IMG/VR virus record: IMGVR_UViG_3300006316_000001
Span: 42,816-106,815 of that record
Direction: 5' to 3' (one strand)
Length of the DNA: 64,000 bases
Source: a virus
The translations under genes and the position numbers were made by a program. The notes beneath the pieces are model-generated. The model saw nothing but the letters and a program-made list of their open reading frames with translations. It did not search any database and was not told where the DNA came from. This document shows positions 14,257 through 62,611 of this stretch, one piece after another (position 1 is the stretch's first letter; each line of letters starts with the position of its first letter).

Positions 14257-14281
14257 AATCTAACATTCTCGGAGAATGAAA

Positions 14282-14611: not shown

Positions 14612-14638
14612 TTGAGTTTCCTGATTACAAAAAATGAA

Positions 14639-14674: not shown

Positions 14675-14689
14675 GTTTAGGGGGTTCTG

Positions 14690-15583: not shown

Positions 15584-15584
15584 T

Positions 15585-16208
15585 ATGCCTTTTGAAGTCA
15601 CGACGTCAGCGATTGGAATCAAAGATACGAACAAAGCCCTAGAGAACATGGCTGATGAACGCGGAAAGAAATGGAAGCGTGATGCATTCATGAAATCAGG
15701 TTTCGAATCATTCCAACACGCAGTTCGAAAATCGCGCGCTAATGCCCCTGTTGGTGAAACTGGCCTCACTAAGAGAAGCATCACATCAACGCGTGGGTAT
15801 TATAACAAAAGAATTCGAACAACATCTTCTGGAAAGATAACCAAGCGCACAAGGAATGAATATTCAATTTCCACAACCCTTAAGAATTCTTTTAATGCGA
15901 AAGCGCCTAAGAATCGAAAGGGGCAAGCGGTCAGATATCCATTCATGAATGAAGTTGGCGTTCCGGCTCAAACGTATACCCGTATATCCAAAAACGGAAT
16001 GCTTCATTCAGTTACCCGAAAAGCTTCCCGAAACCCTTTGTTATTTCAACATAGGGCGTTGGGCACAACAGCAAATAAAGTAGTTAGTACTTGGAATCGA
16101 AAGTTCTCATTCTACCTAGATTTATATGCAAAATCGACCTATGCTACTTTGAGGGGTGCACACAGTGCATTCATTCGAACTGGTGGTGTTGGTTCTAAAT
16201 GGAAATAG
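15585..16208 (+). CDS. HK97 gp10-like tail completion protein
   Basis: A 207-residue basic protein. It opens with the family pattern (GIKDTNKALENMADERGKK), includes SRANAPVGETGLTKRSI at residues about 45-62 and ends with a basic helix. This family completes the tail-head interface in HK97-type siphoviruses. The start has AGAGG upstream, one base after the adaptor gene. It is somewhat longer than typical members (about 140 residues) because of an insertion rich in Lys and Arg. Confidence 0.82.
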   Translation: MPFEVTTSAIGIKDTNKALENMADERGKKWKRDAFMKSGFESFQHAVRKSRANAPVGETGLTKRSITSTRGYYNKRIRTTSSGKITKRTRNEYSISTTLKNSFNAKAPKNRKGQAVRYPFMNEVGVPAQTYTRISKNGMLHSVTRKASRNPLLFQHRALGTTANKVVSTWNRKFSFYLDLYAKSTYATLRGAHSAFIRTGGVGSKWK

Positions 16209-16212
16209 ACAT

Positions 16213-16596
16213 ATGGCATTGACATTGATACATGATAAGTTTAAAGTGCTTATTGATGGAATTACGGGAGGTGATGCATATCCTGTATTCATCCCTGAAG
16301 AAGCTTCATTTCCGGCATATATGTACTCGTTGGAAACGCTATCCCGCGATATCGAGAGTAACCTTCGTGATACCACAGTATCAGCTCACGTTTTTGGTGT
16401 ACATGTTGTCGATAAGACATTCGCTGGTTGTCATGACCGAACGCAAAAACTTTTAGACGGCTTGGATCAGTACACTGAAGGATCTTCTGGATCTCTTTTG
16501 CTGGTTCTTGTTGAGGATGCTCAAGACGGGTTTGACCCTGATCTTGATGCATACACAAAGACACTCGTAGTTTCAGTACGAGTCAAGGAGATTTAA
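16213..16596 (+). CDS. Tail terminator protein (DUF3168-like)
   Basis: A 127-residue protein starting MALTLIHDKFKVLIDG. It has the pattern of small tail terminators: an N-terminal helix, FPAYMYSLETLSRDIESNL, a middle VHVVDKTFAGCHDRTQKLLDG and a C-terminal beta hairpin KTLVVSVRVKEI. The terminator hexamer caps the finished tail tube. It lies between the completion protein and the tube genes, the usual order. Assignment rests on position plus general pattern. Confidence 0.72.
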   Translation: MALTLIHDKFKVLIDGITGGDAYPVFIPEEASFPAYMYSLETLSRDIESNLRDTTVSAHVFGVHVVDKTFAGCHDRTQKLLDGLDQYTEGSSGSLLLVLVEDAQDGFDPDLDAYTKTLVVSVRVKEI

Positions 16597-27188: not shown

Positions 27189-30100
27189 ATGGCTATTCAA
27201 ACTGAGAGTTTCCCAATTACCGTTAGACGTGGTGATACGACACTATTCCGTTGGTGTCTTGAATATGTTGATCCTGTTACTGGTGTCGTCATCGGTCCAG
27301 TCGACATGTCTGGTTGGGTCATTCGTGCTGCCGCAAAGTATGATCAAGCGAGCGTGGTATACAACTTCCCAATCGACTCAACACCTGTAAATGGTATTTT
27401 TGAAACATACATTAATGAAGCTGATTCTAAGAAGCTTCTTGAGACTGACTCTTCAGTCGGTCTAACAGCAAAATATGAAATTGAATTCACAATCCCGAAC
27501 GGTGCGCGTGAAGAAGTTGCAACAGTCATAAATGCACCATTTGTGGTAATCCCTGATCTTGTTGGTGATGATCTTGGTGGTGACGGTGGTGATCCAGGAA
27601 CGACATTGTCGTCAGCTTCATCACCATTCGGTGTGCAGAGCGTTAACCGTTCTTCTTCTACGCAAGTTACCGATTTGGGTAACGGGACACTATTCCGCGT
27701 CAACACTGATCCAATCGAAGGTCTACCGACAGGCATCACTCCAGAGTCTGGAGAGTATGATGTACGAATCACATTCAGTGAGTCTAATCCTGGATACAAT
27801 TCAGAGATTACATCTATTGGTACATGGGAAGGTATCATCTTCAATACGACTCAACGTCTTGATGATCTTGTTGATACCCCTAATACAAAAGTTGACCGCG
27901 CATTCTTGGTATCAAATACAACACAGAGCACTGAGTGGGTTAAGCCTACTGTGACTGCGTTGGATGGTATTAAGATCGTTGATGAGGAATTGATTGATTC
28001 ACCGAAGGTTGGTCTATCGATTACCAGTATCGCTCAGGAATCGCAAGCTGCATCAACAACAGACATGATCGCTATCGAAATTCCTGGAGTGGGTGTCCGT
28101 AAGATTAGCGTTCAGAAATTCAACGCTAGTGTGGCAGCATACCGTCCTCGTGGCTCAATCGCTTTGGACAACTTCAGTAGCGGTGGTACAGTCACTGATG
28201 ATTACGATGGTGTTGTGGTTGTTAATGCTACTACCGCTCCACCTACAGCGTCAAATGGCGCGTCATACGTGTCAACTCGTGATGCTGAATCGAACAGTAT
28301 TGATGGCACTGAGACCAACTATAAAGTTGGTGATATTCTGATTTGGGATGGCGATAGCTGGGTTCGAGCTACTAGTGGTGTTGAATCTTGGCAAGGTAAG
28401 CAGGGTGAAGTTAAAGTTGAGCTTGGTGATTTGAGTTCTTCAATAATCCATGTGGGTTCTAATGTGGGTAAGTCTGTTGAGACTGAGCAGAATGAGCAGA
28501 ATGCTAGACTCTCACAAAATGAGACTGATATCCAAACCATCAATACCCGTTCTCTTGAGAATAGTGCTAAGATTGATGCTATCGAAATGGCACCAGTGTT
28601 CCCGCAGTCTTATGACTTCGAAGCTGATAAAGAAATTCGTAAACGTGCACTTTCTGGTTCAGGCTTTATTGAATGGGGTAAACACCCAACAAACTTATCA
28701 TCGTTCGAAATGCCTATCAATGAGGGGATGTTCACATCAGGTTCCATTGATAACTCACGAAAGGGTTTATTGACCATCGGTGCCAGTAATTCAGCCCTTT
28801 CTCTGGAGGGTTCGTCCCGTTCAGATTATGCGGTTCTTAATTCTGAGGGTGTTGAGTATTTCCTTTCTGATTTTGAAGATGATAGTTATGGCATTCAAGC
28901 CCCATTCCCTGATTCGCCAGACGGTTCTAAGATTTTTGATAATATTAGTGGTGAAGTGCGCAAGTATAATAGTAATCCAGGAATTGGTACTGAGTATGAA
29001 GCATATACCATCAACTTTGACGGTAATACGTGGTTGGATCTGTCAGAAAATCGATACATGTTACCTGTTGGGTCAACTGTCGAATTCAAATTTATCTGGA
29101 CCGAAGTTGGCGGTTCTAATCGTCTAATGTTTGAATCATATCTACAAAAATCTAGAGTTTTTGTTGATGGCGTTACTAAGAATTTGGCTATTACTGGATT
29201 CAACAACCCAACCATCAATGGAGCTGGAGTGACATCTCAGACATTTACTATCGAAGATGGTGTAGAGTATCACTTCAGTGGAACTGTAGTGGCTGATACC
29301 TCAACTGATAGGGTGGGTATAAGTAGCACTGGATCTGCTGCATTTTTGGGTAATATTTGGGACATTAAGCTTGCTTCTAGTGAAGATGGTGTTGACCCTA
29401 TTGAATTCAATACAGTGAAACACCAACCCAAAGCTGATAATGTGCCGTCATTCCCTACCGTTGGTGGTGACGTTAACCCTAACTATGTAACTGGATACTA
29501 TGTTGACTATGATGATGATGGTGTTGTTAAAATACCAACCTTCCCTCTTTCAGATAAGTTGACATTGACAGTTTCATTCAGAGCTGACGACGTATCTAGA
29601 ACTATGTGGTTTGGTACTGATTCTGTCTCTGGTGGTCGATTATACTTCAACAATGATGTGACTCAAAATCAATTTGACATCAGTATTGGTTCATCAGCAA
29701 ATACTTTAGTCTTTGACAGAATTGATGTTGGTAAAGTTTACACTGCTGTTGTTGAGTTGGTCAAGGGTAGTGATGGTAAATATTCTGCGACTGCTAACAT
29801 GGACGGTCAAACAAGAACATCTTACCCTGAAACATATACCGTTGATGAAATCGATGATTTCTGGTTAGGTGGTATGGGTAATGATGGTAACCCATCAGAT
29901 AGATGGAATGGTGACATCTTCGATCTCAGAATCGAATATCCTGATGCTCCTGATATGAATCGCTATTATAGTGGTTTTGAAAGCGTGAATCCGCAAGATC
30001 GTTTAACCGTTACTGATAATGATGGTTTCGGTGAGAATGATTGGTCTCCATCATTTTCAGAACATAGCACATCTAGATATGTGGAGATACCTGAATGGAG

Positions 30101-33100
30101 ACCATCTGAGTATGGTGAACATTCAATTGAGTGTATGTTTAGAATGCCTGCACTTCCGCAATCTGGTAAGCATTACAAGTTAATTTCTGACCGCACCCCT
30201 GAAGGGGCAGCAGCTGCTGGTTTATATCTTTCTGTGGATGCTGCTGGTAGGCTTAATTGTAACTGGTTTTCAGCCCTTGATTTCGACACACTGGAAATTA
30301 ACAAGACGTACCATTTGAAATATGTCCAATACGCATATAGCGGTAGTCGAAAGGGGCAATTATTCGTTAATGGTGTGTCTGTGAGCGATAAGATGGATGT
30401 GGATGCTCCTATTACTGTTGTGCGTAGTATTGGTGCTGGTGGCTATGGACACGGCTTAAATGGTGCAGTTTGGGATGTTCGATTGATTGACAATAGCATG
30501 CCAAACAACGACCGTCATTATCCAATGACAGTGAACAGCGTTTCTAGACCAACTACCAAAACTGTTGTTGATGCTGGTTTCGATAAGGATACTGCGCCAT
30601 TCTATAGTCCTGATTGGGGTACTTCATTCAATACTAGAGTCGCTGCCATCCCTGAATGGGTAGCATCTTCTGATTCAGTGATAAGATTCAAGACTATAGT
30701 TGATGCGGTTGCCGCTGATGGTTCAGACTATATGCACTGGTGTGGCGCTGATGGTTCTAATGCTGATAGTTCGGTGTATGTTAGAGTCGTTGATGGTACT
30801 GAGTACAAATTCTTCTTTTCGGGAACTACCAAAAATTGTGAGATTAATGGTGTTGCTGTTCAGTCCGGTATTGTGTATAATTATCTCGGGCAAGAAGTTG
30901 AGATAACAATATACCCAGAAGAGGGTAAGAAGGTTCAGCACATAGGCGCTAGATCATCATCAGGCTATGGTTCTATAAATGGGCGAATTTGGGATTTTGA
31001 GTTGATAGATAATGTTGACCCAACTAACTCACGTTTCTACCCTATTGTTGAGGAACGTAAAGATGTTATCTATGAGTTGAATGGTACTGACCTTTTGGCT
31101 CAGGGATGGATGAGCTCAACTGCCAATTCAACTTTCGTGGACAATGTGTGGACACTGACTGACGGTGCCACTTCCACAAATGGTATTGCAACTGCGGCAG
31201 CTCCTAGCATGGAGGATGGTAAAACTTACATTCTTGAGTATGATTTTGTGGCTCAAACCAATGACGCTAGTACCATTCAGTTGAGAAATAGTGTTGGCAC
31301 TTCGGGTGGTGCAGAACCATTTACAGTTCTTGGCACTTTTAGTGGGACGCATCGATACACCGGAACGTGGGAATTCACTACCGATGACAATGGTGGCTTC
31401 CGTGGCATTTACATTCGATGCCTATCGGTTGATTCTGGAGATTCATTAACGATTGAGAAGTTTACCATTCGTGATGCTGAAAGTGTCACAAGTGGTACTG
31501 TGATGGCGGAAACGCTAAGAACTGACTTCACTGAAAATCAGGATTTCACAGTAACAAGTTATTGGAACTACATTAATGGAAGTTCTGCCATAATCCGCAA
31601 TAATGGTTACGTTGAGTTTGATGGATCATTGGATGACTGTCGCATAGGACGAGACTTACCAACAATTGAGGTTGAAGAAGTTGAGTTTTCTTTCGAGATT
31701 TATGATTATGTTGCTGGTAGTTGTACACTTTACTATTATGGACCAGAAAGTGAAAATGATGATGGACCAACAACCACAGTTACTGGTAATGGTGTTTACA
31801 CTGGCACAATCAAATGTGATAAATCATATGGTTACTCTGGTCGTATTATGATTAGGGGGCGAGATGTATCATCTCAATTCCCTGAGTTCAAGATACGTAA
31901 TGTCTCTGTAATTCCTGTTAGAGACGGTACTTTAACCAACTTCCCTGAAGGATCTGAGTGGGCTATTGCGGGCGTTTCAGGTAAAACTGATGGAACCCTT
32001 GGTGGTGGTTTCCCTGAAGGATCTGAGTGGAGTCAAGCACAATTACCTAATACTGATGGTATCATGGAAAATTTCTCCACCACTTGGAAGTACAATTCTG
32101 GTGTGTATGAAGCTGAGGTTAATGGTAACGCCACAGGTGTTGATATGTTGTTGACTGCGCCTCAGAAAGCTTTCTTGGCTGTTGATGATGATCCAAAATT
32201 CAGCGTTATCGTTGATCGCAAGGACTTTGTGTTCATTGAAACATGGCGTGAGGATTTGGCGTTACATGATCTGGTTGCTCCTAATGGATGCGTTCAGTAT
32301 CAAAAATCAACTCATGATGGTGTTTCGCTTTCATTGATCGACCCATTAAAGCAGGGTTATTCTGCATATGGTGAGTGGGATAATGTTACACGCGGCTACT
32401 TTGCCACATGGTCAACTATGACTAATGCAGAGAAGTTGAAGTGGTCAGAAAATCCTGCAAACAATATCCACTATTCTGCTGATGATGGGAAATTCTACCA
32501 AGAGAAGTTTCGCGTTTGTGTTGCTGAGGGCGTTGGTAATGGTTGGCGAGTTTCGCACGGAGATACTTTCTGGAGAAATTACACCAGCTTGATCTACGTC
32601 AGTGATCTTGATAGAACCATGGTATTGCCGATACAAGGTGCAACAACAACACCTTACGGTTTGACGACTGGTGAATCCGCTTATCGAACTCCTGGATACG
32701 CTAACCGTGCTGTGGTTAAGTATTTGGCAAATTATGATGTCGCGTCAGCAAGAGTGTTCAATAACATAGAATATGATTCTAGTATTTCAGCTACTGGATA
32801 TGCTAACTGTATTCCTGTTGCTCTTGTTCAGCGCATGAACCAAGGTTCGTATGACCTCAGACTGAACCCATACGGTACTGCTACACCTACATGTCCACCA
32901 GAAATCCAATCATATATGGTTTGTAAGCAAATTGATGATGTTTTGCAAATTAATCAAACATCACTAAGTCAGTGCTTCGCTACTGGAAATAGATATGGTG
33001 TTGGTGGTTATATTGCTGGTAGATATGCTGATACTGGTGTGGTTGGTTCTGGTAGTTCTTTGAATGGCATTCGTGGTGGTGTTGAAAATACTTTCTGTGA

Positions 33101-49259: not shown

Positions 49260-49757
49260 TTAGAATTCATTGAACATTTCGCATAGAAGCTCGTTAACTT
49301 TCTCTTTACTCATCTCAGCAGCCCAACCTGCAGCCTGAACAGCATCATCAACAGACCGACCACAACAACACCAACCAGCGGAAGAGGCGGAACGAGCAGC
49401 CCTCCGCGCACCATCATCCCAACCAGCAGCCCAGCTAGAAGAATCAGCATTAAGAGCGACATCACGAGCGCATTCGGCTTTTGGGTCATTAAGAAAATTG
49501 ACAATTGAGTCATACTTATCTGTGAGTGGCATTATTTTCTCAATGTTAATTAGGGCGCAATCGCATGCAAATCTTGCGATTCTATTTGTTGGTATGGTTT
49601 TACTAGCTAACCACAATAGATCGTCGTATGTATTTGCCCCTCCAACCAATGTTTCTACTTCCACACTCTCTTCAGTGTTGTTGGTTTGTTCTATGAAACG
49701 ATTAAGACCTAATTCGCAAGCATCCATTTCAATCAACTCAGATTTAGAAATTTTCAT
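49260..49757 (-). CDS. Helical-repeat protein, paralogue of 49794-50339
   Basis: A 165-residue protein whose first ~70 residues (MKISKSELIEMDACELGLNR and onwards) are nearly identical to those of the upstream gene, while the second half diverges into an Ala/Trp-rich segment (AAGWDDGARRAARSASSAGW, then three successive Cys). Both end with EMFNEF. The Ala/Trp helical repeats look like those of the Imm-5-like immunity family, but this is a loose resemblance. Confidence 0.7.
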   Translation of the reverse strand: MKISKSELIEMDACELGLNRFIEQTNNTEESVEVETLVGGANTYDDLLWLASKTIPTNRIARFACDCALINIEKIMPLTDKYDSIVNFLNDPKAECARDVALNADSSSWAAGWDDGARRAARSASSAGWCCCGRSVDDAVQAAGWAAEMSKEKVNELLCEMFNEF

Positions 49758-49793: not shown

Positions 49794-50339
49794 TTAGAAT
49801 TCATTGAACATTTCGCGTAGTAGGTCGTCTATGCAACTTGACCCACAAACATGTTGAGCTGACCGAGCAACATTAATGGCATGAATCTTCGCGCTTCCAG
49901 AATATTTTGCGGAATATGCAGCAAAGGCGAACGAAACTGCAGTATTGGCGCAGGATGCACGAGAGTAGCGAGCCTTTTCGATAAAACTAAAAGACTTTTC
50001 CCACAATTCATCCCGAATGTCTTTATTTATATCATCAAAATCGTCAGCAATATCATCACTTGAAGCGTTATTCAAAAAATCAACAATCAAATCGTAGTTG
50101 TCTGTGTGGGGCTTGATATGATGTGCGACAATCAATGCGCAATCGTATGCAAATCTTACGATTCGGCGTTTCGGAATCTTCTTACTCGCTAACCACAATA
50201 GATCTTCGTGCGTGTTCAGTCCACCAACCAATGAGGTCACTTCCACACTGTCTTCGGTGTTGTTGGTTTGTTCTATGAAGCGTTTAAGACCTAATTCACA
50301 AGCATCCATTTCAATTAGCTCAGATTTAGAAATTTTCAT
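49794..50339 (-). CDS. Helical-repeat protein, paralogue of 49260-49757
   Basis: A 181-residue protein with the same N terminus as the next gene (DACELGLKRFIEQTNNTEDS, then LLWLASKKIPKRRIVRFAYD). The second half has Ala/Ser/Tyr-rich helices (AFAAYSAKYSGSAK) and ends LREMFNEF. It is the first gene after promoter copy 5. Tandem duplication followed by divergence of the C-terminal half is evident. The function is unknown. Confidence 0.7.
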   Translation of the reverse strand: MKISKSELIEMDACELGLKRFIEQTNNTEDSVEVTSLVGGLNTHEDLLWLASKKIPKRRIVRFAYDCALIVAHHIKPHTDNYDLIVDFLNNASSDDIADDFDDINKDIRDELWEKSFSFIEKARYSRASCANTAVSFAFAAYSAKYSGSAKIHAINVARSAQHVCGSSCIDDLLREMFNEF

Positions 50340-50468: not shown

Positions 50469-51551
50469 TTAACCTAATAGGTCGAATATGTTGGGTTCTG
50501 GTTCGGTCTGCTGTTCAAAAATGTGACCGCGCCAATCAATCTCACCCCGCTCTAAAAAGAACGACATCGCTTCTTTGTTGATCGGGTCTTTCCGCCCACG
50601 TTCGCCACCTTCTTTGCGAGTTTCTGACGATTGTAGTAATGAGCCATGGAGCATTTCTTTCCTTGCTTCCCAAAGTAGTGACCACTCAATTCCGTCCCAT
50701 CCCTTGGACTGAACGTCGGTGATGTCCAAAAATTGTCGGTCAAGGTAATATCCTGGATACCTACCATCTCTATTACGGAAAAATTTCTTGAAAGCGCAAC
50801 AGACAGTTTCGAACCCAAGACGCTCGACTGACAATCCAAAACGACAATTCGTCTCTTTAATGATTCCATTTGCCTCTTCCTCTAGCCATTCAAGCTCTTC
50901 TTTTGTGAATTTGTGGCGGATCTTTTTACCATCCACCTTACGTTTACACCATTCATCTTTACCTAGTCCGCGACACAATCCGTCACGGTGCGACTCAGAA
51001 CCACCATCACCCAACAACAAACTTGGGATGTCAATCGGGATTCCACATACATCTCGTAGAGCCTGCATATAAAACCAGCATTTGTAGCGACCAAAGTCGT
51101 GGAACTTGATGACCTCATCCCATATGCGTTTGAAGTTCGCCTCACGATCCTCACCACACATACTCATGAACCAAGCATTCTGAGTGCCGTCACCAATGGT
51201 TTCGCGATAGGATTCAAACATCGCTGGCAACTTACCCTTACTGTAACGACAATCCACCTGATAGCGCAACTTGTGGTAATTATCGTCGTTCCACTTAGTT
51301 AAGCGGTCAAGGTCAACCAAGTCATAGTCGGGAAACTCGTTCGCCATCACATACGCTTGTGGGAGTTGATAGCTATTGGCGTACAACCAGACGTACCATA
51401 GACGTTGTTCTTTGTTGTACTCTTGGCGATTGAACATGTAGTTCATCATCCAAATAGCAGGGTCAACATCGCCTCGTAAATACTGCCAAGCTGTGTATTG
51501 GATTAAAAGCTCGCGCCTGTTTTTGTAGTCTGGAGTGCGATAATCAATCAA
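50469..51551 (-). CDS. Amino acid:DNA transferase-like protein (ADDT / aGPT-Pplase clade 2)
   Basis: A 360-residue protein. The pattern NRQEYNKEQRLWYVWLYANS (about residues 42-61), VMANEFPDYDLVDLDRLTKW and LRYQVDCRYSKGKLPAMFES then YRETIGDGTQ (about 95-128) resembles the alpha-glutamyl/putrescinyl-thymine pyrophosphorylase clade 2 family, experimentally linked to adding amino acids to activated 5-hydroxymethyl-dU in phage DNA. The start is TTG 51551, overlapping the previous stop (TTGA). It is the last gene of the promoter-6 operon, with a GAT-II gene upstream, which fits a DNA-modification role. The family call is from motif memory. Confidence 0.7.
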   Translation of the reverse strand: MIDYRTPDYKNRRELLIQYTAWQYLRGDVDPAIWMMNYMFNRQEYNKEQRLWYVWLYANSYQLPQAYVMANEFPDYDLVDLDRLTKWNDDNYHKLRYQVDCRYSKGKLPAMFESYRETIGDGTQNAWFMSMCGEDREANFKRIWDEVIKFHDFGRYKCWFYMQALRDVCGIPIDIPSLLLGDGGSESHRDGLCRGLGKDEWCKRKVDGKKIRHKFTKEELEWLEEEANGIIKETNCRFGLSVERLGFETVCCAFKKFFRNRDGRYPGYYLDRQFLDITDVQSKGWDGIEWSLLWEARKEMLHGSLLQSSETRKEGGERGRKDPINKEAMSFFLERGEIDWRGHIFEQQTEPEPNIFDLLG

Positions 51552-51982
51552 AATATGTACCCCTTGTTCATCTTAGCCAACTCAGTGATGGCAGCATGAT
51601 ACCCTTCACGTTCTTTATTCCATAATGCGCGAGTGAAACGTTGAGCGACCCACGGCTCAAGTTCTTTATGGTGACGGTTTAATAAAATCTTGTCTAACCA
51701 ATTCATATCACACAACATATCATAGTTCAGGTGAATCAAGAACGATGGGTTCTCTTTGATGAACTGCTTACATGAAGGTGGTAGCTTGACGTCAGCAACC
51801 TTGATTTGGTCATCAATATCACCAACAATCTTCTCAATGATGGCTTGTGTTAGAAAAAGACCGCTACTGTGGATGTAGTGGTCGTTACCAATCTTCTCAA
51901 CGATAGCATCAAGGAAGTTGCCCATGCGTGATTTGAGCTGTTGGATTTGCGGGCTATCTTTGTGAGCAATATGTTTATTCAT
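51548..51982 (-). CDS. Hypothetical protein in modification operon
   Basis: A 144-residue helical protein, MNKHIAHKDSPQIQQLKSRM, with a perfect AAGGAG ribosome site, starting 2 bases after the GAT-II stop. No motif is recognised. Tight linkage with the amidotransferase and DNA-transferase genes suggests a helper or substrate-handling role. Confidence 0.75.
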   Translation of the reverse strand: MNKHIAHKDSPQIQQLKSRMGNFLDAIVEKIGNDHYIHSSGLFLTQAIIEKIVGDIDDQIKVADVKLPPSCKQFIKENPSFLIHLNYDMLCDMNWLDKILLNRHHKELEPWVAQRFTRALWNKEREGYHAAITELAKMNKGYIF

Positions 51983-51983
51983 C

Positions 51984-52757
51984 TTAGTCTCCTTTGAAGT
52001 CTTTGATGGTTGTTGGTTTGATTTGGATGTCAATCTGAAGGTCTTGTCCCAAGCCATCCGGATATCTCTTTTTGGCGAAGACTCCTGGATCAGCACGACT
52101 ATATGTACCCATACCCAAAGTTCGACTTTCATAAATGACGCCATTAATGCAATCATCAATCTGGGACTTTTCTATACCTGCGCGAACTAAAGCATCTTGA
52201 GTTGATGAGAAAATTATACCCGTCCCCAAATCAGCGTGCCACAATGGGCGTTGACCGTTGCGGAATCCCTTGATTGTACAATTGGTGGTGTCTAGTTCAA
52301 GAACCGCCATGCTAGCATCTGGGAAATACTTCAGAGGATGGATACCCTGATCAAGTGCTGCTAGAACAAGACTCGAATCATTACCATTTTTGGCAATTAG
52401 CCCGTACTCACTTTCCCAAGTACTCGGATCAGCTTGTGTAATCACACCGTTATGGGCGATAGCTCGTTTCTCACCGAATAATGGTTGGTTGTGCTCAAGG
52501 TCACTGGTTGAGTATCTAGCGTGAGCGATAAGGACAATCTCGTTGTAATCTTCGTCAACAGCATCACTCAAGTTAAACTCACTCAGTAGAGCATCAACTG
52601 GTACTGGCTTGCTGTAACCTTGAATCTTATCATCTTTAATGTACGCCACGCCTGAAGCATGACGACCGCGTATTTGTAAATTTCTAAATACACGTTCACA
52701 CAACTCAAGGTCTTCGCTGGTTGGGTGAACAAAATGCATACCGAATACACCACACAT
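51984..52757 (-). CDS. Class II glutamine amidotransferase (Ntn hydrolase)
   Basis: A 257-residue GAT-II domain. The nucleophile Cys2 follows the initiator Met (MCGVFG), and the usual motifs follow: LQIRGRHASGVAYI, LIAHARYSTSDLEHNQPLF and IAHNGVIT (substrate and oxyanion-hole residues), plus GNDSSLVL. No synthetase or ATPase domain is fused, so it should supply ammonia to a partner enzyme, here plausibly one of the amidoligase-like or DNA-modifying proteins of the same cluster. AGGAG ribosome site. Confidence 0.88.
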   Translation of the reverse strand: MCGVFGMHFVHPTSEDLELCERVFRNLQIRGRHASGVAYIKDDKIQGYSKPVPVDALLSEFNLSDAVDEDYNEIVLIAHARYSTSDLEHNQPLFGEKRAIAHNGVITQADPSTWESEYGLIAKNGNDSSLVLAALDQGIHPLKYFPDASMAVLELDTTNCTIKGFRNGQRPLWHADLGTGIIFSSTQDALVRAGIEKSQIDDCINGVIYESRTLGMGTYSRADPGVFAKKRYPDGLGQDLQIDIQIKPTTIKDFKGD

Positions 52758-52767
52758 AATAATGCTC

Positions 52768-53205
52768 CTATTTGATGTCTAAATCATTAATGAACCACGT
52801 ACAATCAGGATTATACTCACCCACACCACTTGTGGACAAGAACTCTTCCTTTGTCTTTCCATAATACGGATACCCAGAACACATTCCAGGACGGTTTTCG
52901 TAGTTTGTGCACACCCCATTAACTAGATGCTTACATAGGAAGTGGCTCGCTTTCTGTGCCCATTTGCGTAGACCTTTGTCTTTGTATTTGAACATCTGTG
53001 GATTGATCTTCTTGGCACGACGCTTCTTTATTGGAATCAACATGTCAGCGACTTTCTGACGTTCATCACTGTAGTCAGACAAATCCCAATCAGCTCTATT
53101 ATCAGGGAATTTGCGAACAAAATTTTTGTAGCCTTGAGTGGCGACAATACGAAGGACTTTACAACAGTCATAGCAGCGCTCGCCATTAATCATACAATGT
53201 TCCAT
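52768..53205 (-). CDS. YkgJ-type Cys-cluster protein
   Basis: A 145-residue protein with CYDCC near the N terminus and FLCKHLVNGVCTNYENRPGM then C-x-G-Y-P near residues 90-115, plus a late Cys. This is the spacing of the CxxCxxCC zinc/iron-chelating (YkgJ) family. These proteins occur beside modification enzymes but their reaction is unsettled. It is the first gene after promoter copy 6. The start is ATG 53205 or possibly 53193. Confidence 0.78.
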   Translation of the reverse strand: MEHCMINGERCYDCCKVLRIVATQGYKNFVRKFPDNRADWDLSDYSDERQKVADMLIPIKKRRAKKINPQMFKYKDKGLRKWAQKASHFLCKHLVNGVCTNYENRPGMCSGYPYYGKTKEEFLSTSGVGEYNPDCTWFINDLDIK

Positions 53206-53265
53206 TATTTACGTACTCTCTTTTTGTTATTTAGAAATATGTAACCATTTACCCCTACAACAATC

Positions 53266-53294
53266 ATTATACTCTAATTTTACGAGAAGTAAAG
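53266..53294 (-). promoter_or_regulatory. Early promoter copy 6 (leftward)
   Basis: -10 TATAAT at 53271-53266, -35 CTTTAC at 53294-53289, spacer 17 bp. The leader begins GGGGTAAATGGTTAC and has only a weak stem, so this copy has largely lost the leader hairpin. It drives 52768-53205 through 50469-51551. Confidence 0.85.
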
Positions 53295-53316
53295 CTTTTT
53301 AGTTAAATTTGAATGT

Positions 53317-53338
53317 AAAAAAGGCTCCCGAAGGAGCC
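53317..53338 (-). terminator. Terminator after GNAT gene
   Basis: GGCTCC-CGAA-GGAGCC (53323-53338) is followed on the minus strand by six Us. It separates the acetyltransferase gene from promoter copy 6. Confidence 0.9.
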
Positions 53339-53343
53339 TATTT

Positions 53344-53946
53344 TTATGAGAAGATATCTTTCTTTAGGTGAGTCGCCAGCGAACTGTAATTGTGGTCGTC
53401 GCCAGTTGACGATTCTGGATGAACGCGCCTTTGTATTAGATCTATGACTGACTGATTATCATGTCCCAATAAGACACTCATGTCGGGACTATAGCTCAAA
53501 TAGTCATCTAAGGTTTTGAGTAGAGGCATGTTACAGTAATAGTCTCCACTTCTCGTGATTCCCCAGTATGTGAATCCCAATCTATTGTAGAATTTTATTG
53601 CGGAAGGAGCACAATTCATTCTGATTCTAGAAAGTTCGCATTCATTACCTTCTTGTATTGCAACTTCCATAATTTTTCTGGCGTACCCAAATTTCCGATA
53701 TTTCTTTGGCGTCAAAAGATTTATTATGGACAAATACCCGTCTTTGGTTTTGTTTAAGAAAAGAACGGTTACGATTTTACCATCAACTTCCAGACACAAA
53801 ACAGGCTTGGCTTTCCAATCATAGAATCTGTTATGGAATTCGATTGAATTTTCTGAGAATCTCAAGGTTTCCTTATCATCTAAATCTATCGTATTATGGA
53901 AGTATTCTCTGTATGAGAATTCACTATCAATATTTATAATGTTCAT
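53344..53946 (-). CDS. GNAT-family acetyltransferase
   Basis: A 200-residue protein from ATG 53946 (AAGGAAAGTGG upstream). The acetyl-CoA-binding core is KYRKFGYARKIMEVAIQEGN (the R/Q-x-x-G-x-G/A loop: RKFGYA), preceded by the strand DGYLSIINLLTPK and followed by AIKFYNRLGFTYWG. Such enzymes transfer acyl groups to amines. In phage hypermodification clusters GNAT proteins help tailor the base side chain; here the link is by position only. It sits between two terminators, after the transporter gene. Confidence 0.85.
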   Translation of the reverse strand: MNIINIDSEFSYREYFHNTIDLDDKETLRFSENSIEFHNRFYDWKAKPVLCLEVDGKIVTVLFLNKTKDGYLSIINLLTPKKYRKFGYARKIMEVAIQEGNECELSRIRMNCAPSAIKFYNRLGFTYWGITRSGDYYCNMPLLKTLDDYLSYSPDMSVLLGHDNQSVIDLIQRRVHPESSTGDDHNYSSLATHLKKDIFS

Positions 53947-53961
53947 ATCCACTTTCCTTAT

Positions 53962-53983
53962 AAAAATGGCTCCCGAAGGAGCC
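53962..53983 (-). terminator. Terminator after transporter gene
   Basis: GGCTCC-CGAA-GGAGCC (53968-53983) is followed by AUUUUU on the minus strand. The hairpin is identical to the one at 53323-53338. Expression of the GNAT gene downstream would need read-through or its own promoter; none is visible. Confidence 0.85.
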
Positions 53984-53993
53984 TTAATAGGAA

Positions 53994-55322
53994 TTACTTT
54001 ACCATCTTGAACGCTTGAACTACCATGTTTAGGTATAGCGCTGCTATTGGTAACCCTAGGATTGCAATCACAATCTTCAGAGCATTCCAAGCTTCAGGTC
54101 CAAACATTTGGAAGCTAATAGCCATGAACGCTACAAATACAACCCAGCAACCTGAACTTGTTTTACCTTCGCTCATCTCATCCAAAGCAATCGAACCAGA
54201 GTCAACACAAGTAACCATCCACAAACACATTGCCACTAACAGTACACCACCAGCAATCTCACCATACGGGATAACCTGCTCAAGCAAGACGAACGGATCA
54301 TTAACTTCAAGAATCTCAGCAGCCGAACCTAGTACACCGAAGAAGAAACAAGTGATAACCATCGGAATAACACCAACACCAACAATCACTTCACGAACAG
54401 TACGCCCTTGGGAAATTGTGGTAAAGAACGCCACGCTGAACGGTAGGAAAGTGAACCACCAAGCCGCATAGAAGTATGGCCACCAGAATAACCAGCCATT
54501 GTGATCTTCGCTAGCACCAGCACCAGTATCGAAGCCATACTCAAATAGATTACTCAACATCATCCCGAAGCTTTGGAATGTGTACTTTAGTGTATCCATA
54601 CCAACAAACCAAGCCACCGCTGCTGTGATGATTACACCTGTAACCATTGCGCCATTACTCAACCATTTCACCCCACGCAGAACACCTGACTTTGCTGACG
54701 CTAGGCTGATAATCGCAAACACCACCATCAGTATACTCTGATCAACATCAATGCCGAATGTTCCCTTAAGACCCGATTGAACGCCAGAAGCTGCTATTGT
54801 GAATGACGACACGATTGCGATTACCGTAGTTACACACATGAGAACCATAGAGGCTGATGTTGCCTTTTTGCCCATGTTAGGAGTGAATACAGCTTTACCC
54901 TTTGACCAGAATATACCGCCAGCCGCAGTCGCCACAGCAAACATGATATAAGCTGGACCCCAGTTATACATGGTGCGAGCAATAGCATCAGTGGTTTCGA
55001 AACCAGCCTCAACGTGATAGCTTGGTTCAGATACGCCCCAAACGAACAGTGATGAACCAATTACCGTTGATACGCACATACCGTACCAGCTGAGGTTACC
55101 AATTCGCTTCTCTCCTGGAAGCTTGATATTGGCAAATTTGGAGTTGAACGCTAGTACCGCTGCGATAAATACCGAAGCCATAATTGTTGCGTTCATCATC
55201 CAACCGAAGTCACCGAGGACTCCCTTTCGGATTGAACCAAGGATGTTACTGACATCTTCAGTAAAGAACGATGACGCCAGACCGAGTGTTAGTAGAATTA
55301 AGATTGTGTATAGGCTCTTCAT
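53994..55322 (-). CDS. BCCT-family (betaine/carnitine/choline-type) transporter
   Basis: A 442-residue integral membrane protein with about twelve hydrophobic segments. The diagnostic BCCT region is present at about residues 275-315: GWLFWWPYFYAAWWFTFLPF then ISQGRTVREVI, the Trp-rich helix 8 and following loop of this family. An earlier FVWGVSEPSYHV matches the WGVxEP signature. It is shorter than bacterial members, with minimal tails. I chose ATG 55322 (AAGGAAATTAAC upstream). BCCT carriers import quaternary amines or related solutes. It lies inside the DNA-modification cluster behind two amidoligase genes, so it may import a precursor, or protect the host osmotically. Start alternatives: 55340. 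Confidence 0.88.
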   Translation of the reverse strand: MKSLYTILILLTLGLASSFFTEDVSNILGSIRKGVLGDFGWMMNATIMASVFIAAVLAFNSKFANIKLPGEKRIGNLSWYGMCVSTVIGSSLFVWGVSEPSYHVEAGFETTDAIARTMYNWGPAYIMFAVATAAGGIFWSKGKAVFTPNMGKKATSASMVLMCVTTVIAIVSSFTIAASGVQSGLKGTFGIDVDQSILMVVFAIISLASAKSGVLRGVKWLSNGAMVTGVIITAAVAWFVGMDTLKYTFQSFGMMLSNLFEYGFDTGAGASEDHNGWLFWWPYFYAAWWFTFLPFSVAFFTTISQGRTVREVIVGVGVIPMVITCFFFGVLGSAAEILEVNDPFVLLEQVIPYGEIAGGVLLVAMCLWMVTCVDSGSIALDEMSEGKTSSGCWVVFVAFMAISFQMFGPEAWNALKIVIAILGLPIAALYLNMVVQAFKMVK

Positions 55323-55382
55323 GTTAATTTCCTTATTCATTGCGCCAGTTGTAGTGGCCAAGACCACGTAAAAATGTATGGA

Positions 55383-56381
55383 TTATCGTAACCATCCGTA
55401 TGTTTCCTTAATTTCTTTGAGTAGTTCTTTAGTGATTTCAGAACCGTTCGCATAGTTGTATTTGCGGAAGTTGTCCTCCATCACCTGATCATTATGAGGC
55501 ATTGGGGGAAAGTCCCAGTCATCACGCATTGCAATAACGTCGTGAATTGTTTTGTGTGGCTCATTTAGCGCAGTCTCAATACACATTGCTGTGAATAGAG
55601 CCACATTTGCCATTTGTTTACCTTGGCGAGTGCCCCAATTACTACGGTTCTCGATAGTTGGGTGTTTACCGCCCTTACCGCGAAGTCGTGTAGTGTTCAA
55701 TCCTGGACGTTGCATCATCCAAGAAGGTTTATTGTCCTTTGTCTGATTCGCTTGCCCGTCAATTACCCCGCGTGCCGTGTCTGCAGCTAATGCACGCTCC
55801 AAATTAGCATCACGGAGAACTGAGCAACAAGCGCCCATCATGTATTTGAACAATTTAGGGTCACAAGTTTCCTTGTCTATATTGAACGCTGGAGGATTCG
55901 TCTTAGTGATATCTTCCCAGTTATTGGTAGCCCACCAGAACAGTCGCTTCATGCCATCGCGGTCTTCAGTTAGACCTTCAACACCAACGTGAACGTGGCC
56001 ACCCGAACGTCCCGAAACTGAAATCTCATGACCGATATGAGCTTCTTGCATAGCAATCATTTGGTCCCACGCATCGCCAAGTTCTTCGGGTGAGTTGTAC
56101 ACTGCTGTGTTAACTTCACCACCGCGATTAGAGATAGGAAGATCACCTTCGTATTGATCTTTGAGAGGCCAAGAAGCTTTACCGTCGCGATTACCACATT
56201 CACTCTCAGAGTAAGACCATGACCAACCTTCAGGAAGTGGACCACTTTTATCGACATCATTAACTTCAGCATCGATACCGAAAGTGAATGTCTTAATGTC
56301 GTATTTCGCTTTAACCTGCATCCATGGCTCGTTTTGAACTAGTTCCAATGGAGTTGGTTCTACATCACCGAATATGTTCAT
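55383..56381 (-). CDS. Amidoligase-like protein (ATP-dependent COOH-NH2 ligase family)
   Basis: A 332-residue protein. Near the N terminus TFGIDAEVNDVDKSG, then NRGGEVNTAVY (about residues 80-90), SGGHVHVGVEGLTEDRDGMK (about 125-144) and a late ENRSNWGTRQGKQM segment follow the glutamine-synthetase/GCS2-like amidoligase pattern (two acidic metal sites and an HxH strand). It shares these blocks with the interrupted gene at 56393-57382. The family forms amide bonds in peptides and secondary modifications. In this cluster the acceptor may be a modified base or free metabolite (inference). Confidence 0.68.
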   Translation of the reverse strand: MNIFGDVEPTPLELVQNEPWMQVKAKYDIKTFTFGIDAEVNDVDKSGPLPEGWSWSYSESECGNRDGKASWPLKDQYEGDLPISNRGGEVNTAVYNSPEELGDAWDQMIAMQEAHIGHEISVSGRSGGHVHVGVEGLTEDRDGMKRLFWWATNNWEDITKTNPPAFNIDKETCDPKLFKYMMGACCSVLRDANLERALAADTARGVIDGQANQTKDNKPSWMMQRPGLNTTRLRGKGGKHPTIENRSNWGTRQGKQMANVALFTAMCIETALNEPHKTIHDVIAMRDDWDFPPMPHNDQVMEDNFRKYNYANGSEITKELLKEIKETYGWLR

Positions 56382-56392
56382 GCTCTATACCC

Positions 56393-57382
56393 CTAAATGT
56401 TGTTTGGTTCTTGACGTACACGGTATGTGTTTTTGTCGTCAGCCTTCAGCTCGCCAATACGGTTCTTTCTATCAATCAAGGATTCTACATACCCGACCAT
56501 GATGTCGCGTTCATATTTGATCTTAGGAAATTTCCATTCAGGATGTCTGTCTAGAATAGACTGAACTGATTCACCAGTATTAAGCGCAGCATTAACGAAC
56601 TCTTCACAGAACTCAAAACAGCAACGTAGTTCATCGCGATCAAGAGAACCACGGAATGCGCGGAACTCTAACGTACCCATTCGCCCAAGCGGATAAAGAT
56701 TGACAGCCGCTCTTGACATTGGCATTCCCTTTCGTGAACCGCTACTTTCGTGACGACTTTCGCCCATCTTATGTGCGTCAATCAACTCAAATAGGTTGGT
56801 TACTGACGGAAGACGCTCACGATACCAATCAGGGATTTTAGTGGTTGACACATAATCTAAGTATTTATGACAGCCCCATGTGGATCCTGGAAGCTTAATA
56901 TCTTCGTAGACAGCAAATACAGGTTCGCCGAACAGATCAGTCTCACCAGTATCATATTTGTAGTCTTCATCAGTTAGACGGAAACATGCATTAATGTATG
57001 CTTGGCGATTATCTTCATTAGCAGAGTAGATTGCTAATCTTCGCAGAGCATCACCATCTTCAGTGAGTCCTGGAATATGCATATGAATGTGGGTTACTTG
57101 GTAGTGGGACATTGTCGGGTGTGGGAAGAAATCTATGATTTCCATGATGCGATCAAGTTGGTCTGGCCAACCTACCGTTGGAACCGTGTTAATTTCGCCA
57201 CCCATATGGCAATCTTCACCAGATGGGTCAGCAGCGATTCCGCGAAACTCACCCAACATATTGATGATATCATGCTCACACCATTCCCACTATCCGAGAT
57301 GCTCAGGAATTTCGGTTCGCTTATCAACGTCACCTAGTTCCAACTCAGTACCGTATTGGAATGTTTCTTTAGGGTAATTCAT
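56393..57382 (-). pseudogene. Amidoligase-like gene interrupted by an in-frame TAG
   Basis: From ATG 57382 (AAGGAAATAAT upstream) the frame reads MNYPKETFQYGTELELGDVD... and stops at TAG 57292-57290, codon 31, then continues open as WEWCEHDIIN to TAG at 56395. Without the first TAG the protein would be 329 residues. It shares GGEINT, THIHMHIPGLTEDGD and other blocks with the neighbouring 55383-56381 gene. A restart at ATG 57259 would lose the first metal-site motif. TAG is the normal stop of this and other genes here, so recoding is unlikely; a recent nonsense mutation or sequence error is the simplest reading. Confidence 0.75.
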
Positions 57383-57443
57383 ATTATTTCCTTCTGAAAT
57401 AAAGGGGAAGCGTCAACCTTTAACACTTTACCCCATAACAACC

Positions 57444-57472
57444 ATTATACTCTTATTTTACGAGAAGTAAAG
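57444..57472 (-). promoter_or_regulatory. Early promoter copy 7 (leftward)
   Basis: -10 TATAAT at 57449-57444, -35 CTTTAC at 57472-57467, spacer 17 bp. The leader hairpin at 57434-57404 pairs GGGG/CCCC and AAGUGUUAA with UUGACGCUU, all nine positions pairing with two G-U. It drives the amidoligase-like genes and the transporter. Confidence 0.88.
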
Positions 57473-57476
57473 CTTT

Positions 57477-59324
57477 TTATAGATAATTATTGATGAACCA
57501 TTGTACGGTGGTTGGAATATCCATCGAATGATCCACCCAAACCGCCCTAACGCCACCATAACCGTTAGTGCCTTCGATGCAACGCTCTGCCTTCACTCGC
57601 GTTTCTTCCCATTTGGACTCAACGTTCTTGGTGTTCGGTGTTTTACCTTGAGCTGCGTTGCGTTTCACTAGACGTTCCATGCACACTTCTAGAGGTGTAT
57701 CCATGAATAGCATATGAGGCGTCATACCCATTTCTTTAAAACGATCAATGTGCCATCGACTAGAACTCAGTACCACACCTTCCATCATGATATGATAATC
57801 GTCGAATTCCGGTCGCCCCATGATGATATCCAACGCTTGTTCCATTGTAGCTCTAACCAATGTATCGCATCCAGCAATGTTGGTTCCAGGAGTGTAGTCC
57901 CCAATAAGGATGATTCCAAGATTGGGTAGTACCGTGGCGAATCCAGATTTCTTGGTTGTGGCTTGGAAACCTTTAGACATATTCCCAGACAACCAAGCGA
58001 ACTCTGTTGAGAGAAGGTACGCATCAGTGTCACGTTCAACGAGTCCCTTGGGGATGGTAGATTTTCCTGAACCATTCGTGCCAAGTAGCTGATACATGGT
58101 ACGGCTCTCACGGTGCCCATACTTAGAACCTGTGTACTCTGGTTTTGGGTCGAAGAGAGTGTCTTCATAAAGGTCGGTTCTTCGTACTTCTGAATCAACA
58201 CGTTTGCGCTCTTTATGGAGTTCAAGTTGCTCATCATCTGTGATTCGCTTACCCATGTAGGGGATAGTGCGGTTTGGATCATTCGGGGCTTCATTTTTTA
58301 CCTTCTTGGGTCTTTTCATATCTTCACCTGTTCCATCAAAACTAACACGCGCACGCGGCTTCTTACCTTCTTTTACTTGTTCATTACAACGAACGTACTT
58401 ACTGAATTCACAGAAGCAGTTCTCTAATGACATCACATTCATTGTGCGATCTTTTGGGTCAAGGTCGGTCATTAAGTTCTCAGTGAACGATGTTCCGAAT
58501 ACTTCATCTTGATTATCACGCAACCAGAATAATAGCTCTTCATCAGTCAAACCATCAGGGTCTGTGAATAGCATACTTAGACCGAGTGAACATCCTGGAC
58601 CAGCGATAGTGAATTCGTTCTCGCTGAACTTATAGTCTGGGCAGTACGTGAAGTCAACAAACATCTGATAGCTCAAAAATTCGCCAATTCCAGGAACATC
58701 CATCAGGATATTACAAACCTCGCGCGGTGATTCTGCTGAGTGGATATCGTCGAATAGACCCTTACCGATCATCCAATCAATTAGAGCCATTGGTCGAGCC
58801 GGAATGTACACCTCACCCGTTAGGCGACCGGATGCAGCCTTCATACCACCAGTATTGAATGCTGATGTGAAGAACACGTAATCTGAGTCACTGGTTTGTT
58901 TAGCCTGTAGAATCTTTTTGCGATCCATCATCCACCCACCATACTCATTCTGAACCCCAGAAAATGAAGCAGGTAGGTTAATCAACTCACACGTTTCCCA
59001 TTTATTGTACAATCGGAATAGGACTAGGTTGATGATGCGCGTGGTCAAACTCAAATCTGTGCGATTACAGATATGTTCGATAGCCCACTTGGTGGCACGA
59101 TCATGCTCGCGTCTAACGTTAGTGAACTTCACATTCTGTAGAATTGTATTGGATGTCCAAGGCGCGGGAAGCTTCATAACATCTTTCTTCAAATGGATGT
59201 TGTAACGCTCGGTTATCCATTCCACCAATAGACCCAGCTTAACTGGGTCCATGGGTGGTTTTGCGTAATGGATCTTACCTTGACTGACGCCACAATATGG
59301 GACATCATGAGGTCTATTTAACAT
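57477..59324 (-). CDS. 5-hydroxymethyl-dU DNA kinase (helical domain + P-loop kinase)
   Basis: A 615-residue two-domain enzyme. Residues 1-310 form the HMUDK helical/HhH domain: KFTNVRREHDRATKWA (66-81), VLFRLYNKWET (101-111), PGIGEFLSYQMFVDF (211-225) and FTIAGPGCSLGLSML (238-252), typical of the aGPT-Pplase clade 1 or hmdU kinase family. Residues 405-615 form a P-loop kinase with GTNGSGKST (415-423). Family members phosphorylate 5-hmdU in phage DNA, the first step toward thymidine hypermodification. The start has AAGGAAATCC upstream and overlaps the previous gene by 11 bases. It implies that the phage makes hmdU-DNA; the hydroxymethylase is not in the window. Confidence 0.87.
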   Translation of the reverse strand: MLNRPHDVPYCGVSQGKIHYAKPPMDPVKLGLLVEWITERYNIHLKKDVMKLPAPWTSNTILQNVKFTNVRREHDRATKWAIEHICNRTDLSLTTRIINLVLFRLYNKWETCELINLPASFSGVQNEYGGWMMDRKKILQAKQTSDSDYVFFTSAFNTGGMKAASGRLTGEVYIPARPMALIDWMIGKGLFDDIHSAESPREVCNILMDVPGIGEFLSYQMFVDFTYCPDYKFSENEFTIAGPGCSLGLSMLFTDPDGLTDEELLFWLRDNQDEVFGTSFTENLMTDLDPKDRTMNVMSLENCFCEFSKYVRCNEQVKEGKKPRARVSFDGTGEDMKRPKKVKNEAPNDPNRTIPYMGKRITDDEQLELHKERKRVDSEVRRTDLYEDTLFDPKPEYTGSKYGHRESRTMYQLLGTNGSGKSTIPKGLVERDTDAYLLSTEFAWLSGNMSKGFQATTKKSGFATVLPNLGIILIGDYTPGTNIAGCDTLVRATMEQALDIIMGRPEFDDYHIMMEGVVLSSSRWHIDRFKEMGMTPHMLFMDTPLEVCMERLVKRNAAQGKTPNTKNVESKWEETRVKAERCIEGTNGYGGVRAVWVDHSMDIPTTVQWFINNYL

Positions 59325-61683: not shown

Positions 61684-62364
61684 CTATAATAAGATCAATT
61701 TACCATCGGATTCAGACAACACACCATCAACATGAACATATGTGACGTTGCGTCTCATCATATCGGATGTGTTTTCTGAGGTACGCCCGTATGGTACACC
61801 ATAAACCACACGTGAAACGCCTGAGTTTGCTATGTTTTTGGAACAGTCAGCGCAAGGTTGGTGAGTACAATATAATGTACCGCCTTGGATATCATCACGA
61901 TTCGAATGCAGCAACGCATTCATCTCAGCGTGTATTTCATGCTCAGAAGACCATTTGTGATGCTTATCGTACAATTCCTTCAGTTTGTTTGTGCCCAATA
62001 TCTCGCAACCAAGTCTAATTTCTTGCTTGATTGCCTCAACCTCTTCTTCGAAGTTGGGGAAGCGGTCACAACAATTACTATCACCTGCGGGTGTGCCATT
62101 GTAACCTGACGCTACAATACGACCTTGACTGTTAACGATGATGCACCCAACCTGATGCTTAACGCACTTGCTTTGGAGCGACTCAATGTAAGCCTGTCTC
62201 AGCCGTGTTTCGTCAAATTTCTCTATTTTGGTAATTTTAATTCTGGGTAAAGTACCAATATCTTCCATAGATTTTAAGCTCGCTTCCCATTTAACATCGT
62301 TAATATCTGGATTTGGAAAACATTCATCACACATTTCAGGGCTGGACCGCCCATGCTCGCACGC
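61684..62364 (-). CDS. dCMP deaminase
   Basis: A 226-residue deaminase. Zinc ligands and catalytic Glu lie in HAEMNALLHS (HAE) and CTHQPCADCSK (PCxxC). VGCIIVNSQGRIVASGYNGT is the usual substrate-binding segment. An N-terminal CEHGRSSPEMCDEC cluster is an added zinc site. It converts dCMP to dUMP, the precursor for dTMP or hydroxymethyl-dUMP, consistent with the hmdU kinase in this genome. The start at 62364 has GAGGT upstream; an earlier in-frame ATG (62412) would overlap glutaredoxin. Confidence 0.93.
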   Translation of the reverse strand, partial: ACEHGRSSPEMCDECFPNPDINDVKWEASLKSMEDIGTLPRIKITKIEKFDETRLRQAYIESLQSKCVKHQVGCIIVNSQGRIVASGYNGTPAGDSNCCDRFPNFEEEVEAIKQEIRLGCEILGTNKLKELYDKHHKWSSEHEIHAEMNALLHSNRDDIQGGTLYCTHQPCADCSKNIANSGVSRVVYGVPYGRTSENTSDMMRRNVTYVHVDGVLSESDGKLILL

Positions 62365-62368
62365 CATA

Positions 62369-62611
62369 CTACTTACCTCGTAAAAATCGGTTAAGTTCTG
62401 CCGCACCACCAATCATCTCATCATCGATGAATATCATTGGGAATGTTTTGTGGTTGTGCGTTTCCGCCAACTTTCTGAACTCTTCTTCCGTATAGTCCTT
62501 GCCTAGAGACTTGTAGGTGAAGTTCATTTGGTGTCGTTTTAGCATTGATTGTGCGCTAACGCAGAACTGACAGAATTCTTTACCTAAAACTGTGATGTTT
62601 GGATTTGCCAT
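62369..62611 (-). CDS. Glutaredoxin
   Basis: An 80-residue thioredoxin-fold protein with active site CQFC (residues 14-17), cis-proline segment TFPMIFIDDEMIGG and a C-terminal helix. Phage glutaredoxins reduce ribonucleotide reductase. It is a member of the helicase-deaminase operon, with AGGAG upstream. Confidence 0.93.
   Translation of the reverse strand: MANPNITVLGKEFCQFCVSAQSMLKRHQMNFTYKSLGKDYTEEEFRKLAETHNHKTFPMIFIDDEMIGGAAELNRFLRGK

Follow-up and report, generated by a model that had tools for sequence, protein, structure and literature searches.

A stretch of 64,000 nucleotides, called the window here (bases 42816-106815 of the 106,815-bp virus contig IMGVR_UViG_3300006316_000001), contains a gene cluster which, judged from its protein families and their linkage, is a pathway for thymine hypermodification whose side-chain module (glutaminase, amidoligase, acetyltransferase) is conserved. 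Its core is a 5-hydroxymethyldeoxyuridine (hmdU) DNA kinase, HMUDK, and a transferase of the amino acid:DNA transferase family, ADDT. These are accompanied by a stand-alone class II glutamine amidotransferase (GAT), two amidoligases (AL1 and AL2), and a GNAT acetyltransferase (Table 1). The GAT, amidoligase, and GNAT enzymes very probably tailor an hmdU-derived thymine in DNA. In the full model a first module makes and activates hydroxymethyluracil (hmU) and a second one (GAT, ADDT, amidoligase, GNAT) builds the side chain. The whole statement, chemistry included, is given a probability of about 0.5.

Both core assignments, first made in an initial annotation from the letters of the sequence alone, are upheld by profile searches. 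The kinase matches HMUDK_hel (PF18723, 2.7e-65, residues 32-318) and HMUDK_HMUD1 (PF18748, 1.5e-17, residues 408-578), both above the Pfam cut-off, and has ~40% identity to the separate HMUDK_hel proteins of Ackermannviridae. The transferase matches the Pfam ADDT family (PF18724, 7.7e-22; 78.6 bits with a cut-off of 26.2) and phrog_3271 (5e-61). When viral contigs were scanned with an ADDT alignment, 166 relatives came up, of which the best 80 share 40-46% identity with the window ADDT (Ackermannviridae ADDT: ~28%). In a tree the window protein is closest to this environmental set, but branches are long and the exact position of the protein is weakly supported. Alignments were needed as queries, and viral-contig scans with the kinase, AL1, or GAT as single proteins gave zero matches.

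The neighbours of ADDT in these uncultivated phages are recurrent: GAT, amidoligase, GNAT, a low-molecular-weight (LMW) phosphatase, a TET/JBP dioxygenase (PF12851, 1.5e-24), and a P-loop nucleotide kinase. The last matches PF18751 and phrog_800, and the kinase domain of the window HMUDK matches phrog_800 too. Non-redundant loci were defined by clustering ADDT at 80% identity and requiring at least 4.5 kb upstream (n=17, window included). GAT stands beside ADDT in 17/17 of them, and since these loci were not sought with GAT as a seed, this count is unbiased in that respect. TET/JBP is present in 15/17 and an amidoligase in 13/17, the latter count being biased upward. GNAT was found in 8 loci and LMW phosphatase in 8, never both together. 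The P-loop kinase lies beside ADDT in 13 of the 16 clusters with enough downstream flank. The genes are not in a fixed order, TET/JBP lying upstream in some loci and downstream in others, and the amidoligase is not always present, which speaks against mere hitch-hiking of the module genes. The window itself has an ADDT of the 40-46% group near a stand-alone class II GAT, the combination that marks the GAT-linked cassettes. The comparison supports the earlier suggestion that GAT, amidoligase, and GNAT form a set with ADDT and are not accidental neighbours.

Within the module, ADDT appears to be the tighter partner of GAT. The window GAT matches PF13522 (GATase_6, 4e-6) with conserved Cys2, RYST, HNG, and ND motifs, and it adjoins ADDT across a single gene for a 144-aa protein, while the amidoligases sit beside the kinase instead. 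GAT occurs with ADDT and GNAT subtype A in the absence of an amidoligase in 6/20 clusters, and in two such records (161.7 kb and 110.2 kb), searched whole by profile, an amidoligase was not detected. Subtype A of GNAT (SLRSDQ motif) and amidoligase never occur together in the 20 clusters, as expected of alternative caps. The mutual exclusivity of GNAT subtype A and amidoligase, and of GNAT and LMW phosphatase, across the non-redundant ADDT cassettes suggests several end products. The window GNAT (PF00583, 2.4e-9) has 27% identity to the GNAT of another ADDT cassette (L100), and its AlphaFold (AF2) model matches the acyl-CoA GNATs RimI, PaiA, SpeG, and GCN5. Its true start is probably internal to the overlap with the transporter gene.

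The contig also appears, from its gene families, to hold a near-complete set for making and activating hmdU. The initial annotation proposed a search of the rest of the genome for a dUMP hydroxymethylase, and one was found: a thymidylate synthase (TS) homologue with 34-38% identity to Ackermannviridae and Aeromonas phage enzymes (37-38% to those of the Ackermann-type phages phiMAM1 and Kevin). Aligned to the CMP hydroxymethylase MilA, it carries Asn at the position of the Asp that goes with cytosine specificity, and this fits dUMP as the substrate. A dCMP deaminase likely supplies dUMP for this enzyme. In a profile search of the contig, which may be incomplete, no radical S-adenosylmethionine (SAM) enzyme (PF04055), pyridoxal phosphate (PLP) enzyme of the aminotransferase fold (PF00155; other PLP folds were not searched), or DAO-type flavin enzyme (PF01266) was found. 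Nor did TET/JBP (PF12851) match anywhere in the contig. The claimed absence of PLP and radical-SAM tailoring enzymes is thus borne out for radical SAM and aminotransferase-fold PLP enzymes. The contrast that had been drawn with known pathways was too sharp: Lee et al. 2021 reportedly described the installation of amino acids on 5-hmdU, followed by tailoring with acetyltransferase and flavin (lyase) enzymes as well as with radical SAM and PLP enzymes.

The relatives mostly lack this route. Among the 20 cassette or amidoligase records searched whole, HMUDK_hel is absent in 17 and the TS homologue in 18. The window phage has HMUDK and TS and lacks TET/JBP, whereas most of its relatives lack HMUDK and TS, which points to one side-chain module served by two hmU sources. 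A C5-cytosine methyltransferase was found in 0/16 TET-type records searched. The use of the same module on two hmU routes, together with this missing methyltransferase, argues that the TET/JBP enzymes of GAT-linked cassettes oxidise thymine rather than 5-methylcytosine. Systems based on TET/JBP are said to have been predicted by Iyer et al. 2013. Clusters of TET/JBP, ADDT, and kinase genes, such as those of Rhodococcus phage Tonitrus and Caulobacter phage Cr30, have been recognised as thymine hypermodification systems (PMC11955845). The window phage shares ADDT and a P-loop kinase with them, and the GAT-linked uncultivated group shares TET/JBP too, but the window phage uses a dUMP hydroxymethylase and HMUDK in place of TET/JBP. 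In public annotation, the TET/JBP proteins of DLP6, Cr30, and S-CBWM1 are filed as 'SNF2 DNA repair protein' and the phrog_800 kinases of these pathways as 'terminase small subunit'.

Pfam matches for the amidoligases are weak (Amidoligase_2 at 0.049 for the AL2 frame 56393-57259, none for AL1), and no PDB relative was found by sequence search for them or for ADDT. Both are homologous to the amidoligase of phage Simon and to amidoligases of many environmental phages. The AF2 model of AL1 (mean pLDDT 79.7) was compared with PDB structures using Foldseek, and almost all of the structures matched belong to the carboxylate-amine ligases of the glutamine synthetase (GS) superfamily: glutamine synthetase, GmaS, YbdK, gamma-glutamylcysteine synthetase, and PafA. 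The best E-value of 5e-4 and global TM-scores of 0.3-0.4 are evidence of fold class and not of a close match. AL1 retains D37/E39, GGE89, N91, H129, H131, E244, and R246, with one conserved E changed to D. By modelled fold and conserved residues it is a predicted GS-superfamily carboxylate-amine ligase.

The AL2 gene starts at 57382, not at 57259, where the listed open reading frame (ORF) begins at an internal ATG. An in-frame TAG separates the conserved, catalytic N-terminal Gly-x-Glu-x-Glu motif from the remainder, and nearly 300 open codons follow. The site is open in all 18 aligned relatives, AL1 among them. The TAG may be a mutation, an assembly error, or a read-through codon. Stop-codon reassignment was considered and rejected: TAG terminates 25/107 of the longer contig ORFs, and the window yielded no suppressor tRNA, which makes a general reassignment unlikely. 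Because of the amber codon, only AL1 may be active. Of the two amidoligase-like proteins named initially, both are therefore upheld by homologues (AL1 also by its model), but AL2 has its conserved motif interrupted.

In the proposed chemistry we infer the order of the substrates, the nucleophile, and the product in virion DNA. The dCMP deaminase and dUTPase would provide dUMP, the TS homologue would turn it into hmdUMP, the dNMP-kinase-like protein would lead to hmdUTP, and the polymerase would incorporate it. The fused HMUDK, with the second HMUDK_hel protein, would then (pyro)phosphorylate the hmdU base in DNA. A pyrophosphorylated intermediate has been described in phiW-14 (PMC5977210). GAT would free ammonia from glutamine, and the ADDT-clade transferase would replace the activated group with this ammonia or with a small amine, giving an aminomethyl-type thymine. 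Finally, AL1 and/or GNAT would cap the aminomethyl amine as an amide. This specific, ammonia-first order is put forward tentatively. GAT is preferred as an ammonia source since clusters with GAT and no amidoligase exist, GNAT subtype A and amidoligase exclude each other, and the window GAT adjoins ADDT. The model suggests a final base with an amide-linked side chain, as had been supposed initially. Such a side chain is a plausible candidate, since cytosine offers a chemical precedent in the reported amide ligation on carboxymethylcytosine (PMC12783734). An obligatory split amidotransferase made of GAT and amidoligase, the first model considered, is weakened by GAT-only and amidoligase-only loci.

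Several observations weigh against the two-module pathway with this chemistry. AL2 is interrupted by the amber codon, and AL1 is the more divergent of the two (about 20-27% identity). The amidoligase was the seed for some of the loci, which inflates its count beside ADDT. The related ADDT loci share ancestry (22 clusters at 80% identity, 8 at 70%). The published name of ADDT implies that it attaches amino acids rather than ammonia. In phage Simon and two other records (L118, L120) an amidoligase lies next to HMUDK and TS homologues, and in a third (L116) next to an HMUDK_hel fragment; this placement supports a link of the amidoligase with the hmdU genes, but none of the four has a detectable GAT. 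Phage Simon (PQ683277; L010, about 8876-16426) resembles the window phage in having an amidoligase, HMUDK kinase, HMUDK_hel, TS homologue, and ADDT match in one region. It differs in its LMW phosphatase and Nmad5, and no GAT, GNAT, or betaine/carnitine/choline transporter (BCCT) was detected in it. The Simon record lacks annotation and carries the flag UNVERIFIED, and the ADDT frame in it is broken up.

The best surviving alternative, still on the unlikely side, is that ADDT attaches an amino acid via its amino group and that GAT and amidoligase form a split glutamine-dependent amidotransferase which converts the carboxylate to a carboxamide. Charge would be neutralised in this way in place of the PLP decarboxylation of ViI/M6. 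The family name of ADDT and the GS-superfamily fold of the amidoligase both fit, and GAT lies directly before the amidoligase in 11 of the 13 amidoligase-bearing clusters besides the window (L114 and L074 have one gene between). There is also the cytosine precedent, the CmoA-CmoX-CmoY system of 5-carboxymethylcytosine (5cxmC) amides, in which CmoY makes a 5cxmC-glycine amide and one CmoY cluster has a glutaminase domain predicted to use NH3 (PMC12783734). That system likewise hypermodifies phage DNA by ATP-dependent amide ligation; it works on cytosine with a carboxymethyl handle and an asparagine-synthetase-type ligase, whereas thymine, a hydroxymethyl handle, and a glutamine-synthetase-type ligase are proposed here. 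Set against amidation of an attached amino acid are the six GAT-ADDT clusters that lack an amidoligase, including the two whole records above 100 kb, the amidoligases beside HMUDK/TS genes with no detectable GAT, and the separation of GAT from the amidoligases in the window.

It is improbable that HMUDK and ADDT make an already known base, for example an amino-acid thymine, with tailoring genes that are decaying or non-functional in this phage. The amber codon in AL2, the divergence of AL1, and a loose operon with general phage genes inserted would fit such decay, but AL1, GAT, and GNAT are open with conserved motifs and have stayed linked to ADDT although the genome around them differs from that of the relatives. 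Among the closest known systems is that of ViI-like phages (Ackermannviridae), which make 5-NeOmdU. Shared with them are the TS-type dUMP hydroxymethylase, HMUDK_hel, an ADDT-family protein, a homologue of their separate P-loop kinase, and a dUTPase and dNMP kinase close by. In the window phage, however, kinase and HMUDK_hel are fused, ADDT is of the GAT-linked group, a class-I PLP enzyme is lacking, and GAT, amidoligase, GNAT, and BCCT are added.

It is decidedly improbable that GAT, amidoligase, and GNAT form an unrelated cassette (peptide, cell-wall, or superinfection-exclusion) of the phiEco32/LUZ24/Marvin type and are only neighbours of the thymine genes: GAT and Amidoligase_2-superfamily genes do stand side by side in LUZ24-like and other phages lacking ADDT or HMUDK (ADDT in 0/4 phiEco32/LUZ24-type records tested, no HMUDK_hel in Ka1), and GATase/amidoligase genes have been discussed only in such cell-wall or secondary-metabolite roles (PMC10580990), but those cassettes have a longer GAT (24-30% identity), ATP-grasp, a phiEco32-type COOH-NH2 ligase, and gamma-glutamyl cyclotransferase, none of them recurrent near the ADDT-linked module or among the Pfam/PHROG matches of the window cluster genes, and the module stays tied to ADDT, TET/JBP, and kinase across reshuffled orders.

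The genes of the cluster are all open, co-directional, and near-contiguous on the minus strand, with intergenic gaps of -97 to +138 bp (for the TAG of AL2 see above).

Table 1. Genes of the thymine modification cluster and related genes (window positions unless marked as contig).
Feature	Position	Strand	Basis or remark
ADDT-family transferase	50469..51551	-	PF18724, phrog_3271
144-aa protein between GAT and ADDT	51548..51982	-	start inferred from place directly after GAT
Stand-alone class II glutamine amidotransferase (GAT)	51984..52757	-	PF13522; nucleophile Cys2
CxxCxxCC (YkgJ-like) metal-binding protein, probable passenger	52768..53205	-	PF03692, phrog_14785
GNAT acetyltransferase, variant of ADDT-linked GNAT family	53344..54090	-	PF00583
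BCCT family transporter, pathway role unproven	53994..55367	-	PF02028
Amidoligase 1 (AL1), intact	55383..56381	-	homology to AL2 and phage Simon amidoligase; AF2/Foldseek
Amidoligase 2 (AL2), predicted GS-superfamily carboxylate-amine ligase	56393..57382	-	in-frame TAG 57290-57292; alignment of relatives
5-hmdU DNA kinase, HMUDK helical domain and P-loop kinase domain fused	57477..59324	-	PF18723, PF18748
dCMP deaminase	61684..62412	-	PF00383 2.3e-22, phrog_174 2.8e-53
Second HMUDK_hel protein	contig 1189-2178
dUTPase	contig 6117-6677
DNMK-like (dNMP-kinase-like) kinase	contig 6674-7216		profile match 2e-4, below cut-off
TS homologue, dUMP-type hydroxymethylase	contig 7270-8394		PF00303 1.6e-10

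The transporter matches PF02028 (2.2e-53), with BetP, a trimethylamine (TMA) transporter, DddT, and BetT as PDB relatives. In an alignment to BetP over the residues of its aromatic box, the aromatics of transmembrane helix 4 (TM4) are largely replaced, while the TM8 region is retained and its Trp partly kept. A BCCT relative with 27-28% identity is carried by the Escherichia phages IME392 and EP_H11, which have replication genes of a different type. This relative lies in an hmdU-type operon (L013, 6055-14910; the same in EP_H11, L025) with a TS homologue, HMUDK_hel, a P-loop kinase, a weak glycosyltransferase-like match, a PIG-L deacetylase, and a methyltransferase, a set for a different and probably sugar-based thymine modification. 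Other BCCT matches in the phage collection come from Acinetobacter, Listeria, Staphylococcus, and faecal records. Two BCCT scans gave four weak loci, three with a BCCT gene and none with thymine-modification genes nearby, so the link between BCCT and hmdU rests on two phage lineages. The transporter that the initial annotation placed in the cluster therefore has a parallel in the IME392/EP_H11 lineage, but its substrate site appears to have diverged and the two scans gave no other convincing case. It is very improbable that BCCT imports a betaine-like or other small organic acid which the amidoligase joins to an aminomethyl-thymine made by GAT and ADDT. If this were true, a DNA base would be built from an environmental solute and would carry a permanently charged or zwitterionic amide side chain.

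The YkgJ-type protein, also counted as part of the set at first, looks like a general phage gene. It matches CxxCxxCC (PF03692) at 3e-4 (21.8 bits, below the cut-off of 23) and phrog_14785 at 2.4e-19. Relatives are found in 61 phages, mostly of Vibrio and Klebsiella, and given this spread it was dropped as a default pathway member. The 144-aa protein has no match in Pfam or PHROG. Directly downstream of ADDT lie two tandem paralogous genes (49260-49757 and 49794-50339), both of which start with MKISKSELIEMDACELGL. In the same phage a T4-like replisome is combined with a sigma-70-type factor of its own and a single-subunit RNA polymerase (window 1200-2126; contig 27807-30164).

The GAT/amidoligase/GNAT module is widespread in environmental phages and apparently uncharacterised. 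The exact cassette may have been noted in earlier literature. Cultured phages in the searched collection have no match to the GAT group above about 30% identity, and with the module so frequent in environmental phages, a lack of isolates seems to be why its chemistry has gone unnoticed. The diverse DNA bases of phages defeat restriction and other nucleases, and new enzyme sets are possible DNA-labelling tools. That TET/JBP oxidises thymine in GAT-type cassettes is a directly testable claim. If the module works as proposed, it would add amide-forming tailoring to thymine chemistry, in parallel to the 2025 finding on cytosine.

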